From Candidatus Uhrbacteria bacterium (GTDB taxonomy: Bacteria > Patescibacteriota > Patescibacteriia > UBA9934): DNA of 40,171 nucleotides. A model generated the notes under the pieces. That model made no database searches, was not told the DNA's origin, and saw nothing but the letters and a program-made list of their open reading frames with translations. Position numbers and translations under genes: made by a program. Below, piece after piece: positions 24,313 to 32,763 of the stretch (position 1 is its first letter; each line of letters begins with the position of its first letter). The stretch covers positions 1 to 40,171 of the forward strand of contig CAIKHN010000001.1 in NCBI GenBank assembly GCA_903827265.1. The letters run 5' to 3'.

Positions 24313-24990
24313 ATGCTCACCACTGTACAAGAAAGACTCCTGCAACAACTCACAACAAAGCGTGGCAGACGTGAAGCGGAAATGTTTGTGATTGAAGGCG
24401 AGAAGTTTGTGCGCGATGCTGGTGGACTCGTCGAGTTTACGTTTACGCCAGCAGATACAGAACGATTTGCGGAATACGTTTCAACAGAAACGCCGCAGGG
24501 GATTGCTGCGGTTGCTCGGATTCCAAAAGTAACAATGAAGCGTTTTGCGGAGTCGACAACGATTGTTGTGCTTGATGGTGTTCAAGATCCGGGAAATGTG
24601 GGAACCATTTTGCGCGCAGCACTCGGCTTTGGCGCAAGCGTGTTGTTGGTGGAGTCAGCGGAGGTAACGAACCCAAAAGTTGTTCGTGCATCGGCGAGTG
24701 CAATTTTGCGCACGCCATGGATGACGGTGTCGCGTGAAGACGCCGGTGCAGTGATTGCGTCGTTTCATCGGACCGTGTATCGGCTCGAGCTTCGCGACGG
24801 TGCGGTACTCCCGAGCGACATTCGCAAGGAACCTTGTGTGATTATTGCGGGAAGCGAAGGGAAGGGAATTACGTTGCCTGTTGCGGGAATTTCTGTGGGC
24901 ATTCCACATCATGCGGCGCTTGAATCATTAAATGTCGGTGTTGCAACATCAATTCTTTTGTATGAACGAAGCCGACAGTTCTCCGTTTAA
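24313..24990 (+). CDS. TrmH/SpoU family RNA 2'-O-methyltransferase
   Basis: LDGVQDPGNVGTILRAALGFG, IIAGSEGKGI, SLNVGVATSILLYE. Confidence 0.92.
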   Translation: MLTTVQERLLQQLTTKRGRREAEMFVIEGEKFVRDAGGLVEFTFTPADTERFAEYVSTETPQGIAAVARIPKVTMKRFAESTTIVVLDGVQDPGNVGTILRAALGFGASVLLVESAEVTNPKVVRASASAILRTPWMTVSREDAGAVIASFHRTVYRLELRDGAVLPSDIRKEPCVIIAGSEGKGITLPVAGISVGIPHHAALESLNVGVATSILLYERSRQFSV

Positions 24991-26140
24991 CGTTCGTGCT
25001 CTTCATGGTGCTGCCCGCCGGGGAGCATTGCACACGATGCATGGCGTTGTAGAGACGCCTGTATTCATGCCGATCGCAACCGCCGGGGCATTAAAGACCT
25101 TGCTGCCAAGCGAAGTCGCGGGCTTGGGCGCGTCTATTATTTTAGGAAATACGTATCACTTACTGCTCCGTCCTGGCGAGAAGGAGCTTCAGAAATTTGG
25201 TGGCGTTCGTCAGTTCATGCATTGGGACGGCCCACTTCTTACTGATAGCGGCGGGTATCAGGTTTTTAGTTTGTCGAAGCTTAATAAGACTGACGACGAC
25301 GGTGTTACGTTTCAGTCACATATTGATGGCAGTACGCATCGATTGACCGCTGAACGATCGATGGAAATTCAAAGCGCAATTGGTTCGTCGATTCGCATGC
25401 AGTTCGACGACGTTGCTGCCGGGAACTCCACGCGCGATCGATATTCTGAGGCGATGGAGCGATCGCTCCGTTGGGCGGCACGATCAAAACAGCGATTTGA
25501 TGAATTGAACAAAGGAGTGGAAGGAGACCGGCCGTTGCTCTTCGGTATTGTCCAGGGCGGAACACATCACGACCTCCGCGCGCAATCGTTGCAGGGTTTA
25601 ACTGAAATTGGATTCGACGGCTACGCAATTGGTGGACTGTCCGTTGGAGAATCTCGCGAAGACACGTTTCGCATCGTGCGATCGTTGGCAAAAGAAATGC
25701 CGGCAGATCGCCCTCGATATTTTATGGGCGGAGGAATGCCAGAAGAAATTGTGGCGTATGTGTCGTTTGGCGTTGATATGTTCGACTGTGTGTTGCCAAC
25801 GCGCAATGCTCGACATGGATCGCTATTTGTTTGGAAGGGAAATCCGGCAGACGCGGTGCGCGAGGCATTTACGCGAGCAATGGACGGCGCGGCAGATTTT
25901 CGTATTGCAGAAGCGCTGTACGACAAGATCCAAATTACCAACGAACGCTTTATGTCTGACGAAACGCCGATTGATGCGTGGAATAGCGCCGAGACGTCGC
26001 GAACGTTTTCTCGGGCGTATCTCCGACATTTGTTTAAAACCGGCGAAACCTTGGGATTACGCCTCGCAACCCTGCAAAATCTGGGCTTTTATTTGCGAAT
26101 GATGGAGGAATTGCGTTTGATCACAGCGAATCCCTTGTGA
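24962..26140 (+). CDS. tgt: tRNA-guanine transglycosylase homolog lacking Zn ligands
   Basis: ILGNTYHLLLRPG, DSGGYQVFSL, FGIVQGG, IGGLSVGE, GVDMFDCVLPTRNARHG; Zn motif replaced by NSAETS. Confidence 0.92.
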   Translation: MNEADSSPFNVRALHGAARRGALHTMHGVVETPVFMPIATAGALKTLLPSEVAGLGASIILGNTYHLLLRPGEKELQKFGGVRQFMHWDGPLLTDSGGYQVFSLSKLNKTDDDGVTFQSHIDGSTHRLTAERSMEIQSAIGSSIRMQFDDVAAGNSTRDRYSEAMERSLRWAARSKQRFDELNKGVEGDRPLLFGIVQGGTHHDLRAQSLQGLTEIGFDGYAIGGLSVGESREDTFRIVRSLAKEMPADRPRYFMGGGMPEEIVAYVSFGVDMFDCVLPTRNARHGSLFVWKGNPADAVREAFTRAMDGAADFRIAEALYDKIQITNERFMSDETPIDAWNSAETSRTFSRAYLRHLFKTGETLGLRLATLQNLGFYLRMMEELRLITANPL

Positions 26141-26172: not shown

Positions 26173-28170
26173 ATGAATCGTACCGCGATTGGTGCTGTTT
26201 TCCTCGTTATTTTTGCCGTGAGTGCTGGAATCCTCTCTTTTCCAAAAGAATGGAACGGCGCGATGGCCGTAATGAAAGATAAAGTTGGGTTTCATCTTCC
26301 GTATGCTCCGGAAAATGATTTTACGTTAGGGCTCGATCTGAAGGGCGGCGCGCACTTGGTGTACGAAGCCGACATGAGCTCTATTACTGACACGGAGCGT
26401 CAGACGGCGCTTGAAGGAGTTCGTGATGTTGTTGAGCGTCGCGTGAACGCCTTTGGTGTTGCAGAGCCAATCGTGCAAACAAACATTGCCGATGGTCACT
26501 ACCGCGTGCTTGTAGACTTGCCAGGCGTCACAGATGTGAAGGATGCAATCGCGCAGATTGGTGAAACGCCGGTCTTAACGTTCCGCACGCCAATTTCTGA
26601 CGTGAGCACCACGCCAACAGCAGAGCAGCAAGCGCAAATCGACGCCGCGCAAAAAACCGAACGCGCAGATGCGCTCGCGGTGATGGACAAAGCGCTCGCT
26701 GGTGAGGACTTCGCTGCACTTGCAAAACAATATTCAATCGACAGCGCAACAAAAGACAACGGCGGATACGTCGGCTTTATTGCTGCTGACGATGCGGAAT
26801 ACGACGGTTTGGTAACGCAGTTAGAGAAAGGCCGCACGAAAGTCGGTGTTGTTAAAGGTTTGTACGAAGGGACAAGCAAGATGCACATCGTGAAGTACAT
26901 CAGCAAGAAAACAGAATCAGAACCACGCATTTCGCACATTCTCATTTGTTACGCCGGTGCGCCACAATGCACACAGACACGAACAAAGGAAGAAGCGCTT
27001 GCGCTTGCAACACAATTGCAATCTGAAGCAACGGTGAAGAATTTTGCAGACCTTGCAAAAACGAATTCTGACGATACGGGAAGCAAGGATGCTGGTGGTG
27101 ATGTAAATTATGTTGCGCGCGGACAGATGGTGAAGCCATTTGAAGATGCTGCATATGCACTTCGTGACACGAAGATCTCTGAGGTTGTGGAATCCGAATA
27201 CGGATACCACATTTTGTACCGTGTCGGTTCACGTCCGTCGCGAACGTACGAAATCGCGCAAATCGAAATGCCATGGACAACGGCATCTGATGTGTTGACG
27301 GTTGATCCATGGAAGAATACTGAACTTTCTGGAAAAGACGTGAAGCACGCATCGGTTGCGTTTAACCAGAACACCGGTGCGCCATACATCGTGCTTGATT
27401 TTAACGAAAACGGAACGCAGCTCTTTGGCGACTTAACCAAAGACAACGTCGGAAAAGTCATTGGTATTTTCCTCGATGGTCAGCCAATTACCACTCCGGT
27501 TGTTCAGGAGCCAATTTACGGTGGTCAGGCATCGATTACCGGCAACTTCACGATTGCTGAAGCGAAACTTCTTGCGCAGCGTTTGAACGCCGGTGCCTTG
27601 CCAGTGCCAATTTCTGTGGTCAGTCAGCAGACGATTGGCCCAGCTCTTGGAACAGCATCGCTTGATTTGAGCGTGAAAGCGGGTTTCATTGGATTCTTGC
27701 TCGTCGCTCTCTTTATGGTGTTGTACTACCGTCTTCCTGGCGTTGTCGCCGTTGGTGCGCTTGGCATGTACGCGGTTATTAACTTGGCATTGTTCAAGAT
27801 CTTCGGTGTCACCATTACGCTTTCGGGTATTGCGGGATTCATCTTCTCCCTTGGTATCGCGGTTGATGCGAACGTGCTCATTTTTGAGCGCTTGAAGGAA
27901 GAACTCCGCAATGGACGCGATCTTCCAACGGCAATGGAGGAAGCATTCCGACGTGCATGGCCTTCGATTCGCGACGGTAACGCAACGACGCTTATTGCGA
28001 CAGCAATTCTTTACACCATGACATCTGGTTCAGTTCGCGGATTCGCGTTAACGCTTGCGCTTGGCGTGTTCGTCTCGCTTTTCTGTGCATTCGTGATTTC
28101 CCGATTTGTTCTTCGTCGACTTGCTCGCGTCGTGAAGCTTCGCAAGTCCGTCTTCTTCCTCGGCCTCTAA
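26173..28170 (+). CDS. secD: SecD translocase subunit with inserted parvulin-type PPIase domains
   Basis: GLDLKGGAHLVYE, P1 strands, NAGALPVPI, GFIFSLGIAVDANVLIFER; insertion RISHILI...GGDVNYVARGQMVKPFEDAAYAL...SEYGYHILYR. Confidence 0.93.
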   Translation: MNRTAIGAVFLVIFAVSAGILSFPKEWNGAMAVMKDKVGFHLPYAPENDFTLGLDLKGGAHLVYEADMSSITDTERQTALEGVRDVVERRVNAFGVAEPIVQTNIADGHYRVLVDLPGVTDVKDAIAQIGETPVLTFRTPISDVSTTPTAEQQAQIDAAQKTERADALAVMDKALAGEDFAALAKQYSIDSATKDNGGYVGFIAADDAEYDGLVTQLEKGRTKVGVVKGLYEGTSKMHIVKYISKKTESEPRISHILICYAGAPQCTQTRTKEEALALATQLQSEATVKNFADLAKTNSDDTGSKDAGGDVNYVARGQMVKPFEDAAYALRDTKISEVVESEYGYHILYRVGSRPSRTYEIAQIEMPWTTASDVLTVDPWKNTELSGKDVKHASVAFNQNTGAPYIVLDFNENGTQLFGDLTKDNVGKVIGIFLDGQPITTPVVQEPIYGGQASITGNFTIAEAKLLAQRLNAGALPVPISVVSQQTIGPALGTASLDLSVKAGFIGFLLVALFMVLYYRLPGVVAVGALGMYAVINLALFKIFGVTITLSGIAGFIFSLGIAVDANVLIFERLKEELRNGRDLPTAMEEAFRRAWPSIRDGNATTLIATAILYTMTSGSVRGFALTLALGVFVSLFCAFVISRFVLRRLARVVKLRKSVFFLGL

Positions 28171-28173
28171 TCT

Positions 28174-29076
28174 ATGAAGTTCTCATTAAACGTTATTGGC
28201 CACTCGAAATTGTGGCTTGGGATCTCTGGAGCAATCATCGTTGCTGCGTTCATTTCGCTCTTCGCGTACGGCCTGAACTTCGGCATTGATTTTACAGGTG
28301 GAAGTTTGTTGCAGGTGAATGCACCAGCGTCGTCGGTGGAATCATTGCGCGATGTCGTAACGCAGGCTGGATTTGAGCCTGTTGTGCAGCAAGGTGAGGG
28401 CGATGCCTACTTTGTTCGCCTTGCGCCAGTGACAGAAGAACAGCACCAAACCATCTTCACTGCGGTAAAAACCATTTCTCCTGACGCAACGGAAATTCGT
28501 TTCGACACGGTTGGTCCAGTGATCGGTGGAGAACTTGAGAACGCGTCGTTAAAAGCAACGGGTCTCATGTTGCTCTTAATTACGCTGTACGTTGCGTGGG
28601 CATTCCGAAAGGTGACTCGTCCGGTTGCTTCGTGGAAATACGGCGTCGTAACAATGATTGCAGCCTTCCACGACGTGATTATTCCACTTGGTGTGTTCGC
28701 GATTCTTGGACATTACTTTGGATATCAGGTGGACATGGCGTTCGTTGCCGCAGTGCTGACGATTCTCGGATACTCCATTAACGACACCATCGTTGTGCTC
28801 GACCGCACACGCGAAAACCTTATTCGTCATCGCCACGGAGATATGTCCTTTGGCGATACGGTGAACAAGAGCGTTGTTGAAACCATCGCGCGTTCATTGA
28901 ACACAACGTTCGCGACGTTACTTCCGCTTCTCGCGGTGTTTATCGTCGGAGGCCCAACCACACGTCCATTCGTTCTTGCGCTCATTATTGGTATGCTTTC
29001 TGGAGCGTATTCCTCCATTTTCGTCGCGAGCCCGTTGCTCGTTGAATGGGAAAAATGGCGTGCGCGCAGAACGTAG
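28174..29076 (+). CDS. secF: SecF translocase subunit
   Basis: FGIDFTGGSLLQV, GYSINDTIVVLDRTREN, SLNTTFATLLPLLAVFIVGG. Confidence 0.95.
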   Translation: MKFSLNVIGHSKLWLGISGAIIVAAFISLFAYGLNFGIDFTGGSLLQVNAPASSVESLRDVVTQAGFEPVVQQGEGDAYFVRLAPVTEEQHQTIFTAVKTISPDATEIRFDTVGPVIGGELENASLKATGLMLLLITLYVAWAFRKVTRPVASWKYGVVTMIAAFHDVIIPLGVFAILGHYFGYQVDMAFVAAVLTILGYSINDTIVVLDRTRENLIRHRHGDMSFGDTVNKSVVETIARSLNTTFATLLPLLAVFIVGGPTTRPFVLALIIGMLSGAYSSIFVASPLLVEWEKWRARRT

Positions 29077-29352: not shown

Positions 29353-29371
29353 CAGAGGGATTTAATTGCTT

Positions 29372-30865
29372 ATGATTGGCATCGCGATCCAACTCCCAAC
29401 GCCCGTTGTGCATTACCTGAATGTCACGCCGTTTCCGCTTATCATGGCGCAAGCATTGCTCCTGATTGGATGGATCCCTATTTTTGGTGTGATTATTTGG
29501 GGATTGACGCACATCTGGATGGACTACAAGCAGGGCCTGTACAGCAAAACCCATAAATGGCAGCTTTTAGAAATTCGCATTCCGCAGGATGCAATCAACA
29601 CGCCAAAAGGCATGGAGAACTTCTTCATGAACCTTTCTGGTGTGAAATCTGGTATTACGTGGCGAGAAATGTGGCTTGTTGGTAAAGAGCAAGCGTCGTT
29701 TAGCTTCGAAATTGTGAGTAACAGTGGAAAGATTCAATTCCTTATTCGCACCATCGAAAAGTATCGCGATTTAGTCGAGGCTGCGTTATATGCACAGTAC
29801 CCCGAGGCGCAGATCACCGAAGTTCCAGACTACGTCATGGTGTTGCCAAAAGAATATCCAAATAACGAATGCGACGTGTTCGGTGGGGAATTGGCGCTTT
29901 CAAACAAAGCGTATTTCCCAATTCGGACGTTCGAAGATTTTGAACATCAGGGCGAGAAAGATTTTCGTTTCAAAGATCCTTTGCTGCCAATCATCGAAAT
30001 GATGGGAAAGATGCGCGAAGGTGAGCATTATTGGATTCAGTTTATTATTCGTCCGCCAGACGATCAGCATTGGACGAAAGAAGGCATTGCATACTTGAAC
30101 AAGATGATGGGGAAGGAAGAGAAACATAAGCCTGGGTTCTTCGATTCATTTTCAGAAAATGCGCTGTGGTTGCCAAAAGGTATCGCATCTCAACTTGTTG
30201 GATTTGGCGGCGCCGCCGACGGTCATAAGGAAGATAAGAAGGACGATTTCCGCATGTTCCGCATGACTCCGCAGGAACGGGTAATGCTGGATGCTGTTGC
30301 AGAGAAAATTTCCAAAGTTGGTTGGAAGACGAAGATCCGTTTCCTGTATGCTGGACCAAAAACAGCGTTCCGTAAGGGGTTAATGGCGAGCTCAATGAAG
30401 GGAATGTGGGCGGTTTTTGCAAACCAAAATCTCAACGGATTAAGTTTGCACGGTCCGGCGGTTCCAAAGGATGATTATTTCTGGCAAGCATGGTCGATGC
30501 CGCGAAAACAAAAGAATTTGGTGTCGCGATATCAACGTCGTAGCGGCGGCGAGGGCGGAAGCTGGCAAATGCTCAATACTACTGAATTGGCGACATTGTT
30601 TCACTTCCCGGCTGCAGACGCTCGTACGCCAGTGCTTTCTGCAACAGGTGCGCGTCGCGCTGAAGCTCCGGGCACATTAGAAATTGCGCGACCTGACGAG
30701 CCTCAACTTCAGAACTGGAAGTTGCAGAACGCCGACGCAAAGGAGGAGGAGCGTATGCAGAACCTTCCTATTGCGCCACTCAGTGTTCCAACTCCGGCGT
30801 CGCCAACCGAGCATGTCCTTCTTCCGCAAGAACCTGACGACGTTCCACCGAATCTTCCGATGTAA
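29372..30865 (+). CDS. CPR-type T4SS-associated membrane protein, partner of VirD4-like ATPase
   Basis: N-terminal hydrophobic region; immediately upstream of the VirD4-like gene; Pro-rich C-terminus. Confidence 0.55.
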   Translation: MIGIAIQLPTPVVHYLNVTPFPLIMAQALLLIGWIPIFGVIIWGLTHIWMDYKQGLYSKTHKWQLLEIRIPQDAINTPKGMENFFMNLSGVKSGITWREMWLVGKEQASFSFEIVSNSGKIQFLIRTIEKYRDLVEAALYAQYPEAQITEVPDYVMVLPKEYPNNECDVFGGELALSNKAYFPIRTFEDFEHQGEKDFRFKDPLLPIIEMMGKMREGEHYWIQFIIRPPDDQHWTKEGIAYLNKMMGKEEKHKPGFFDSFSENALWLPKGIASQLVGFGGAADGHKEDKKDDFRMFRMTPQERVMLDAVAEKISKVGWKTKIRFLYAGPKTAFRKGLMASSMKGMWAVFANQNLNGLSLHGPAVPKDDYFWQAWSMPRKQKNLVSRYQRRSGGEGGSWQMLNTTELATLFHFPAADARTPVLSATGARRAEAPGTLEIARPDEPQLQNWKLQNADAKEEERMQNLPIAPLSVPTPASPTEHVLLPQEPDDVPPNLPM

Positions 30866-30870
30866 TTGCT

Positions 30871-32763
30871 ATGCGCTACGAACACGATCACGAGAAAGAC
30901 GTTATCTATTTTGGCCAAACGAACTTCCGCAATGAAATGCGGAGGTTTGGCATTAAAACCGATGACCGTCGTCGCCACATGTACATGGTGGGAAAGACGG
31001 GTATGGGGAAGACGACGCTTCTCGAAAACATGATTCTCGCCGATATTTACGCGGGTCACGGTTGTGCGTACATCGATCCTCACGGAGATACGGTGCAAAA
31101 GATTCTCGACTACATTCCATCGTGGCGCATTAATGACGTCGTATATTTTAATCCGGGTGATGGCGATTTTCCTATCGCCTTCAACATGCTCGAGAAAACA
31201 GAAGGATGGGAAAACGTAAAAGACTACAATGCAAAAGTGATGTACAGCTTGTTGTCGATTTTTAAAAAGGTTTGGGAGAATGTGTGGAGCGCTCGCATGG
31301 AATACATTTTGCAGTACACAATTTTGGCGTTGCTCGATACTCCTGGAACAACATTGCTCGGTATCAACCGCATGTTGTCAGATAAGGAATACCGAACCGA
31401 AATCGTGCAGAACGTGAAAGATCCAATGGTTCAAGCCTTTTGGTTGAAGGAATTTGCACAATACGATGTAAAATTCGCCGCGGAAGCTTCCGCGCCAATT
31501 CAGAACAAAGTTGGTCAGTTCCTTGCATCAACCATGATGCGAAATATTGTTGCGCAATCAAAGTCGTCATTTAGCTTCCGCGAGGTGATGGACGGACAGA
31601 AAATTTTGCTCGTGAATCTTTCGAAAGGTCAGATTGGTGAAGATGCCATGCGTATTTTGGGAGGAATGTTGATTACGAAAATCTACATGTCGGCCATGGA
31701 ACGCGTGAACATTCGCGACGAGAAAGAACGACAAGATTTTTATCTGTACGTTGATGAATTCCAAAATTTCGCAACAGAATCGTTTGCTGATATTTTGTCT
31801 GAAGCTCGAAAATACCGATTGAACCTTATCATCGCGCACCAGTACATCGCACAACTTGATAGCATGACGTCTACTGCGGTCCGCGATGCCGTGTTTGGCA
31901 ACGTTGGAAGCCTGATTACGTTTCGTATCGGTGCGAAGGATGCCGAGTTCATGGAAAGTGAGTTTATGCCGCGGTTTACGCCGGAAGATCTCATCAACCT
32001 TCCAAAATACGGAATTTATTTGAAGCTCATGATTGACGGCGTGAGCAGTCAGCCGTTTTCTGCAATGACGCTTCCTCCAATCGCGCAGCGAACGGGAAGC
32101 GAGGAAAAGGTTATTGAGCAATCACGTGAGCGCTTTGGTGGAAATCGAAAGATGATTGAGGATCATGTCATGACGTGGAGTGGATTTGATCCAAACTTGA
32201 ACGTCGGTGAAGCGTTCGCAAAAGTTGCAGCAGAAAAGAAAGAAGCAAAGAAAGCCAGATTTGCTCATGAATACACTTGTGCGCGTTGCGGAAAAGTTTT
32301 CACATTGCCGGTTGAGCTTGATAAGAGCAGACCGATTTATTGCGACGATTGCCACGCGCTTATTGTGGAGGAACGAAAAAAGAAAGGAGCGTCGCCACGC
32401 CCGCCGCAAGGAAAGGTGTACGCGCCAGAACCGCCAAAAATTGCACAGAGCGAACCTATTGTTATTGTAACGCCTGGTGAAACGACGCTGACGGCATTGC
32501 CAGTGCGCCCAGAGCCTCCAGCTCCTCGACCTCAGCCTGTCGTAGCGCCTGCAGTGCCGGCGCCAGTTGTTCAGCACACAGAGGGTGAGCCGGCAAAGAA
32601 AAAACGACGACGACGCAAAAAGTCTTCAGGATTAGGAACGTCGATTCCAACGATTCCTCAAATGACCCCGTCTGTGGCAAAAGATCCCGTTGCGGCAGCA
32701 ATGTCCGTTGGTATGCGTCCAACACCTGTAGCTCCTGGCGAGCGCATTCATTTCGATTCGTAA
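30871..32763 (+). CDS. VirD4/TraG-like type IV coupling ATPase with C-terminal CxxC-x17-CxxC zinc ribbon
   Basis: MYMVGKTGMGKTTLLENM, YLYVDEFQNFATESFADILSEARKYRLNLIIAHQYIAQL; CARC-x17-CDDC; Pro-rich tail with KKKRRRRKK. Confidence 0.88.
   Translation: MRYEHDHEKDVIYFGQTNFRNEMRRFGIKTDDRRRHMYMVGKTGMGKTTLLENMILADIYAGHGCAYIDPHGDTVQKILDYIPSWRINDVVYFNPGDGDFPIAFNMLEKTEGWENVKDYNAKVMYSLLSIFKKVWENVWSARMEYILQYTILALLDTPGTTLLGINRMLSDKEYRTEIVQNVKDPMVQAFWLKEFAQYDVKFAAEASAPIQNKVGQFLASTMMRNIVAQSKSSFSFREVMDGQKILLVNLSKGQIGEDAMRILGGMLITKIYMSAMERVNIRDEKERQDFYLYVDEFQNFATESFADILSEARKYRLNLIIAHQYIAQLDSMTSTAVRDAVFGNVGSLITFRIGAKDAEFMESEFMPRFTPEDLINLPKYGIYLKLMIDGVSSQPFSAMTLPPIAQRTGSEEKVIEQSRERFGGNRKMIEDHVMTWSGFDPNLNVGEAFAKVAAEKKEAKKARFAHEYTCARCGKVFTLPVELDKSRPIYCDDCHALIVEERKKKGASPRPPQGKVYAPEPPKIAQSEPIVIVTPGETTLTALPVRPEPPAPRPQPVVAPAVPAPVVQHTEGEPAKKKRRRRKKSSGLGTSIPTIPQMTPSVAKDPVAAAMSVGMRPTPVAPGERIHFDS

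Follow-up and report, generated by a model that had tools for sequence, protein, structure and literature searches.

Parvulin units inserted between the base and head of the SecD P1 domain in a class of Patescibacteria

Introduction

SecDF draws on the proton gradient, and the chain that emerges is bound by the P1 head, which moves with it (PMC9987972). In E. coli, SurA is a binding partner of the SecYEG-SecDF-YidC complex; AlphaFold docking puts its two parvulin domains on the P1 head of SecDF, where SurA is proposed to sit in trans (PMC9987972). Two further members of the parvulin family are found on the exit side of the membrane: PrsA, a Gram-positive foldase, and PpiD, a membrane-anchored and translocon-associated protein whose complex with YfgM is reported to bind SecYEG (PMC9643414). 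The evidence that chaperones or isomerases may work directly at SecDF comes, in E. coli, from low-resolution EM and AlphaFold docking of SurA (PMC9987972).

Here we analyze a SecD encoded in a 40,171-nucleotide stretch of DNA from a Candidatus Uhrbacteria bacterium (contig CAIKHN010000001.1; "the window"). The protein shares the P1 base and head, the six-transmembrane RND-type core, the proton-path Asp and Arg, and the tgt-secD-secF gene order with SecD and SecDF of T. thermophilus and other bacteria (PDB 3aqp, 5yhf, 5xan), but adds two parvulin units between the base strand and the head. SurA (E. coli, 1m5y) likewise has two tandem parvulin units at similar spacing. Unlike SurA, the window's protein has no N-terminal chaperone domain, is covalently part of SecD, and pairs a decayed unit 1 with an intact unit 2. 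Whereas PrsA and PpiD are separate proteins, here the parvulin sits inside the motor subunit.

Results

The window encodes a complete SecD with an insert in its P1 domain

The 665-residue product is read from a single unbroken frame and scores 371.4 bits against the NCBIfam SecD model TIGR01129, which has a cut-off of 244.4. A Pfam scan of the product places SecD_1st, SecDF_P1_head and SecD_SecF_C in order, all above cut-off (Table 1). The Sec_GG family (PF07549) scores 19.0 bits, below its cut-off of 20.3, and the motif LGLDLKGG can be read by eye in the protein. Alignment to the PDB sequence pairs SecD Asp565 with Asp340 of T. thermophilus SecDF, and Arg240 of the adjacent SecF aligns with Arg671; D340 and R671 are known proton-path residues. 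A profile search of the window's genome returned this open reading frame (ORF) as its sole SecD match. Given a single SecD in the genome, the family score and the retained proton-path residues, the sequence evidence indicates that this product is the cell's working SecD and no side copy. Relatives with 85-91% identity belong to Candidatus Uhrbacteria, most likely the window's own lineage. Immediately after secF, window positions 29366-32763 encode a 499-aa protein with no Pfam match and, beside it, an ATPase of 630 aa resembling type IV secretion coupling proteins (TrwB_AAD_bind).

Table 1. Features of the secD locus and of its parvulin insert, in window coordinates
Feature	Position	Strand	Description
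tgt (queuine tRNA-ribosyltransferase)	24932..26140	+	32 nt upstream of secD; usual tgt-secD-secF neighbourhood
secD	26173..28170	+	665 aa: TM1, P1 base, parvulin insert, P1 head, TM2-6 core
P1 base, N-terminal part	26416..26589	+	PF21760 SecD_1st, residues 82-139; final strand LTFR (135-140, DSSP) is the entry point of the insert
Parvulin unit 1, degenerate body	26620..26901	+	residues ~150-243; spans the helices through the last strand; has lost the substrate pocket
His-bearing strand RISHILI	26926..26946	+	residues 252-258; H255 corresponds to Pin1 H59; first strand of unit 2
Parvulin unit 2	26935..27222	+	residues 255-350; complete active-site motif set
Cys259 and Cys266, catalytic loop of unit 2	26947..26970	+	C-x6-C directly after the His strand
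Long strand	27202..27273	+	residues 344-367; joins the last strand of unit 2 to a third strand, which has no His and precedes the P1 head
P1 head	27313..27606	+	PF22599 SecDF_P1_head, residues 381-478
SecD transmembrane core	27610..28113	+	PF02355 SecD_SecF_C, residues 480-647
secF	28174..29076	+	300 aa; 3 nt downstream of secD

The insert contains one degenerate and one intact parvulin unit

Between the P1-base strand LTFR and the remaining head, the protein carries about 230-240 extra residues, extending approximately from residue 141 to residue 376. The Pfam Rotamase family (PF00639; curated cut-off 21.7 bits) matches this segment twice, with 35.5 bits for unit 1 (26635-26895) and 78.3 bits for unit 2 (26935-27222). 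In the Pfam scan, the best Rotamase stretch covers residues 255-349, and Rotamase_3 (PF13616) matches over two stretches at 3.3e-35. The unit 1 match begins at Rotamase position 10, and so is without the first strand. Scored with a parvulin HMM built from other phyla only, without any Patescibacterial SecD, unit 1 reached 31.5 bits against a maximum of 10.0 in 2000 shuffles, which rules out chance similarity. By sequence, unit 2 is nearest to PrsA, archaeal parvulins and Pin1, and its best PDB sequence match is a PrsA parvulin domain. We rejected the possibility that the protein is itself a SurA-like protein, since the Pfam scan found no SurA_N family and the N-terminal part is that of a SecD, though its mode of action may resemble that of SurA.

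AlphaFold modeled the full-length SecD with a pLDDT of 80 and a pTM of 0.41, the latter giving little information on how insert and head are oriented to each other. The insert modeled alone reached a pLDDT of 87, with most of the parvulin core between 90 and 97. Foldseek aligned the insert model with the PPIase domain of Pin1 (3ik8; TM 0.82 over 113 columns, rmsd 2.1) and with that of S. aureus PrsA (2jzv; TM 0.84), and also returned a SurA structure; the full-length model matched SecDF structures. In the Pin1 and PrsA superpositions unit 2 has the canonical strand order, and it is predicted to have the parvulin fold. Both AlphaFold models show one continuous strand (236-258) made of the end of unit 1 and the beginning of unit 2, and another (344-367) in which unit 2's final strand extends into one more strand ahead of the head. 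The units thus appear, in the models, to be tied by long shared strands, not by flexible linkers.

Profile searches, solved-structure relatives and the predicted fold agree with the original prediction of a SecD that carries an intact and a degenerate parvulin unit, read without interruption through the insert. The motifs on which that prediction relied (SHIL, GGD, GQMV..F and GYHI) all lie in unit 2, and the AlphaFold and HMM analyses of the ORF recover both the parvulin fold and the P1 head. One detail was refined and another corrected. The insertion had been placed at the P1 head; it enters between base strand LTFR and the remainder of the head, which is not replaced and persists at residues 381-478, so the insert is not itself an ordinary P1 head. 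Unit 1 had been called a degenerate copy missing its first strand, which matches the late start of its Rotamase alignment, but it is better read as the earlier of two copies of a permuted module made of body plus strand (see below).

A single complete active site is conserved per protein

The active-site residues of unit 2 are H255, D301, M319, F323 and H346, which, from alignments and established knowledge, we take to be the equivalents of H59, C113 (or D), M130, F134 and H157 of Pin1. We counted these columns in 48 two-unit and 50 one-unit forms from the window's class. Unit 2 of the two-unit forms keeps the F134 phenylalanine and the H157 histidine throughout (48/48 each), the M130 methionine in 44/48 and the His strand in 47/48, while the D/C113 position is a glutamate in 27/48. 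In unit 1 of the same proteins the pocket columns are scrambled, with the H157 histidine present in 9/48. The one-unit forms keep the aspartate in 49 of 50 proteins, F134 in 47, H157 in 48 and the histidine of the trailing strand in 47. In each protein, constraint acts on one complete site and no more, and we infer that catalysis would be carried out by unit 2. The isomerase activity of SurA is known to be largely dispensable, so intact residues are insufficient proof that catalysis matters. The window's genome encodes one other Rotamase match (L003:952-1872, on G000:C32), a membrane-anchored parvulin without the GYH histidine or the adjoining HIL strand, which is probably inactive.

The catalytic loop of unit 2 also carries a pair of cysteines (Table 1). 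Among 81 multi-unit SecD forms, 44 have both cysteines of the C-x6-C motif, 37 have neither and none has a single one, a count that is inflated by shared ancestry. We propose that this all-or-none pattern reflects a disulfide stapling the catalytic loop. The window's genome encodes VKOR.

Strand order points to a possible circular permutation and module duplication

In one-unit forms, the His strand (ARHILI and similar) follows the parvulin body and directly precedes the P1 head, in 45/51 proteins by pattern and in 47/50 on aligned columns. Two-unit forms have the His strand between the units (77/83), and the strand after unit 2 almost always lacks the histidine. A profile of the one-unit module, consisting of body and trailing strand, fits two-unit proteins twice over its full length, first on unit 1 together with the middle strand and then on unit 2 together with the final strand; the RISHILI strand of the window's protein is collinear with the trailing strand of this module. 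When the trailing strand was moved to the front, the canonical parvulin HMM score rose by a mean of 5.8 bits for 48 one-unit SecDs and 8.1 bits for 16 stand-alone proteins, against about 1 for shuffled strands. For the window's unit 2, its own first strand is worth 8.8 bits (122.3 versus 113.5). We also tried the third strand as a permuted first strand of this unit and rejected it, as it has no His and lowered the score (111.6 versus 113.5 bits, -1.9). The working unit of the window's protein is canonical in order and not circularly permuted, as the Foldseek superpositions of the insert model indicate.

The simplest reading of these sequence comparisons is that one-unit forms carry a circularly permuted parvulin. 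The first and last strands of the parvulin sheet are adjacent, so permutation would be cheap: a hairpin joins them and the first loop opens. A tandem duplication of the permuted module inside SecD would then restore the canonical order for the second body, and the first body and last strand, freed by that duplication, could decay, which would account for their present state. We favour a direction from one-unit to two-unit forms, although one-unit forms may instead have arisen from two-unit forms by loss. A tree of parvulin bodies, built to date the duplication (123 columns, 199 rows), was too poorly resolved.

Stand-alone Patescibacterial parvulins (for example among L171, L172 and L234-L248) have the same order of body and then His strand as the one-unit SecD fusions. 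They differ from the window's parvulin in forming their own membrane-anchored proteins with SurA_N-like N-domains, while the window's unit 2 is canonical. The membrane-anchored foldases L171:608-1906 and L172:633-1592 and most of L234-L248 carry an ASHILI strand after the parvulin body. Across the 23 stand-alone parvulins fetched, the His strand follows the body in 15 and precedes it in 6, numbers that do not represent a frequency because the set was partly picked for matches without the first strand. Those with the trailing strand apparently form a circularly permuted parvulin family. We are evenly divided on a fuller scenario, in which Patescibacteria evolved a permuted parvulin and used it both in stand-alone foldases and in the SecD P1 head, where tandem duplication would have yielded a canonical middle parvulin and a decayed first body, giving a proton-driven motor its own isomerase.

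The fusion is near-universal in one class and occurs in other families of the phylum

We surveyed 380 Patescibacteria genomes, 309 of them with a SecD match. Of the 33 genomes sampled from the window's class, 30 have the fusion; so do at least 35 genomes from at least 12 other families, in several of which SecD, parvulin and SecF form a single chain of 1025-1114 aa. A class-wide sample gave a SecD match in 184/192 genomes; about 65 are full-length two-unit forms, nearly all other matches listed have frames of 500-700 aa, and the 40 of these that were fetched are one-unit or similar. The fusion is thus near-universal in the window's class. The original prediction did not know this as a standard SecD architecture. 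We found no description of it in the open-access literature searched, but within the class it is the standard one and no peculiarity of a single genome.

In many other Patescibacteria families an ordinary SecD, with 9-70 residues in the gap and no parvulin, is the rule, and about half of the sampled Patescibacteria genomes have no parvulin whatever. The fusion is therefore not essential to the Patescibacterial lifestyle. In at least 12 near-complete genomes (for example G085, G230, G248, G298, G374, G027, G155, G198, G217, G121, G317 and G352), the SecD-borne unit is the only Rotamase match. Among about 270 genomes sampled outside Patescibacteria (32 from many phyla, 148 from the phylum of a Syntrophaceae genome and 97 from that of an Omnitrophota genome), no fusion was found, and SecD and parvulins are encoded in separate frames; this apparent absence outside the phylum is a property of the sample and no proof. 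On a SecD-core tree the presence of the fusion needs at least four changes, many forks are poorly resolved, and the tree fits either one gain with losses or several gains.

Forms of the insert vary among families. A degenerate first unit is supported at 98.5% in the SecDF chains of family f67 and at 97.2% in those of f46/f118. SecDs of family f79 (L131, L153-L160, L165-L168) have inserts of about 345 residues that comprise one clear parvulin and about 200 unexplained residues; profile comparison for additional parvulin units there was non-significant, and we accept one unit. Upstream of these genes lies an ORF of about 220-320 aa with weak P1-head similarity. Three SecDs (L127, L128 and L129), the first of them a parvulin-less SecD from the window's own order, have non-parvulin inserts of 50-125 residues at the same site, partly acidic and of low complexity. 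Another SecD (L161:1600-4044, minus strand) has a hydrophobic, membrane-like stretch within the P1 head in addition to a parvulin. Two putative lipoproteins (L169:1732-3168, plus strand; L170:1962-3434, minus strand; LTGC/LSGC lipobox) combine a SecD P1 domain with parvulin units and have no membrane core; their genomes also encode a SecD-parvulin-SecF chain (L110, L111).

Discussion

We consider it probable that the cell's SecD has a built-in foldase, in which unit 2 acts on the chain at the translocon exit while mounted on the proton-driven head. The architecture, its conservation and class-wide occurrence, the predicted fold, and the intact active-site and proton-path residues were obtained by computation. 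From these we infer an action on emerging chains and a coupling to head movement. The P1 head would bind the chain emerging from SecYEG, swing with proton flow and present the exiting chain to the pocket of unit 2. Unit 2, as a working parvulin, would isomerise prolines and hold the chain; folding would begin at the exit, and backward slippage would be hindered. Unit 1, a decayed copy, may now serve as a spacer or binding surface. The task that SurA, PpiD or PrsA perform in trans, as separate proteins, would here be done in cis.

The insert might instead be a chaperone-like module that holds the chain, as a ratchet or hand-over site, with isomerase chemistry incidental, as proposed for SurA. 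SurA likewise pairs parvulins, its HMM and structure align across both units, and published predictions dock it on the SecDF P1 head; yet the catalytic His strand, needless for a pure holder, is kept almost without exception, even with the strand order rearranged, and we regard this explanation as rather unlikely. That exactly one unit per protein has a conserved active site argues against a mainly mechanical role, in which the insert makes the P1 head longer or stiffer, to act as a lever or as a platform on which another envelope protein docks, and the parvulin is a convenient rigid fold. The long continuous strands linking unit 1, unit 2 and the head would suit such a role, as would the variable number of units and the low-complexity acidic spacers that a few relatives (L128, L129) have at the same site, but on balance we find it improbable.

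An isomerase located at the base-head junction could also act on prolines in the SecD/SecF hinge or head, timing the motor instead of serving clients. No conserved target proline was identified, and the stand-alone parvulins of these genomes show an ordinary membrane-anchored foldase layout, making self-directed isomerization very improbable in our judgment. An artefact of assembly or gene prediction joining two genes has a negligible chance of being correct, since ten independent loci (L004-L013) share this architecture in an unbroken frame, as do most of the class's genomes and more than 100 genomes in all. The reading we favour remains that of a SecD with its own working foldase.

Our search of the open-access literature, with subscription papers outside its scope, found no published description of a SecD- or SecDF-parvulin fusion or of a circularly permuted parvulin, though the architecture may well be listed in automatic domain databases. 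The SecD-parvulin protein appears to be undescribed, and the parvulin inside this family is possibly also a new variant. Because strand order changes among its members, this protein family would be a rare example in nature of stepwise circular permutation through duplication of a module. That evolution has covalently fused a parvulin to the P1 head on which SurA is docked, and has retained it class-wide, is strong independent support for direct action of chaperones or isomerases at SecDF and provides a one-piece test system. SecDF is usually regarded as an accessory that does not vary, yet these very reduced bacteria have rebuilt it. In Patescibacteria, a large group of tiny and mostly uncultured bacteria, a single molecule appears to combine export with folding.
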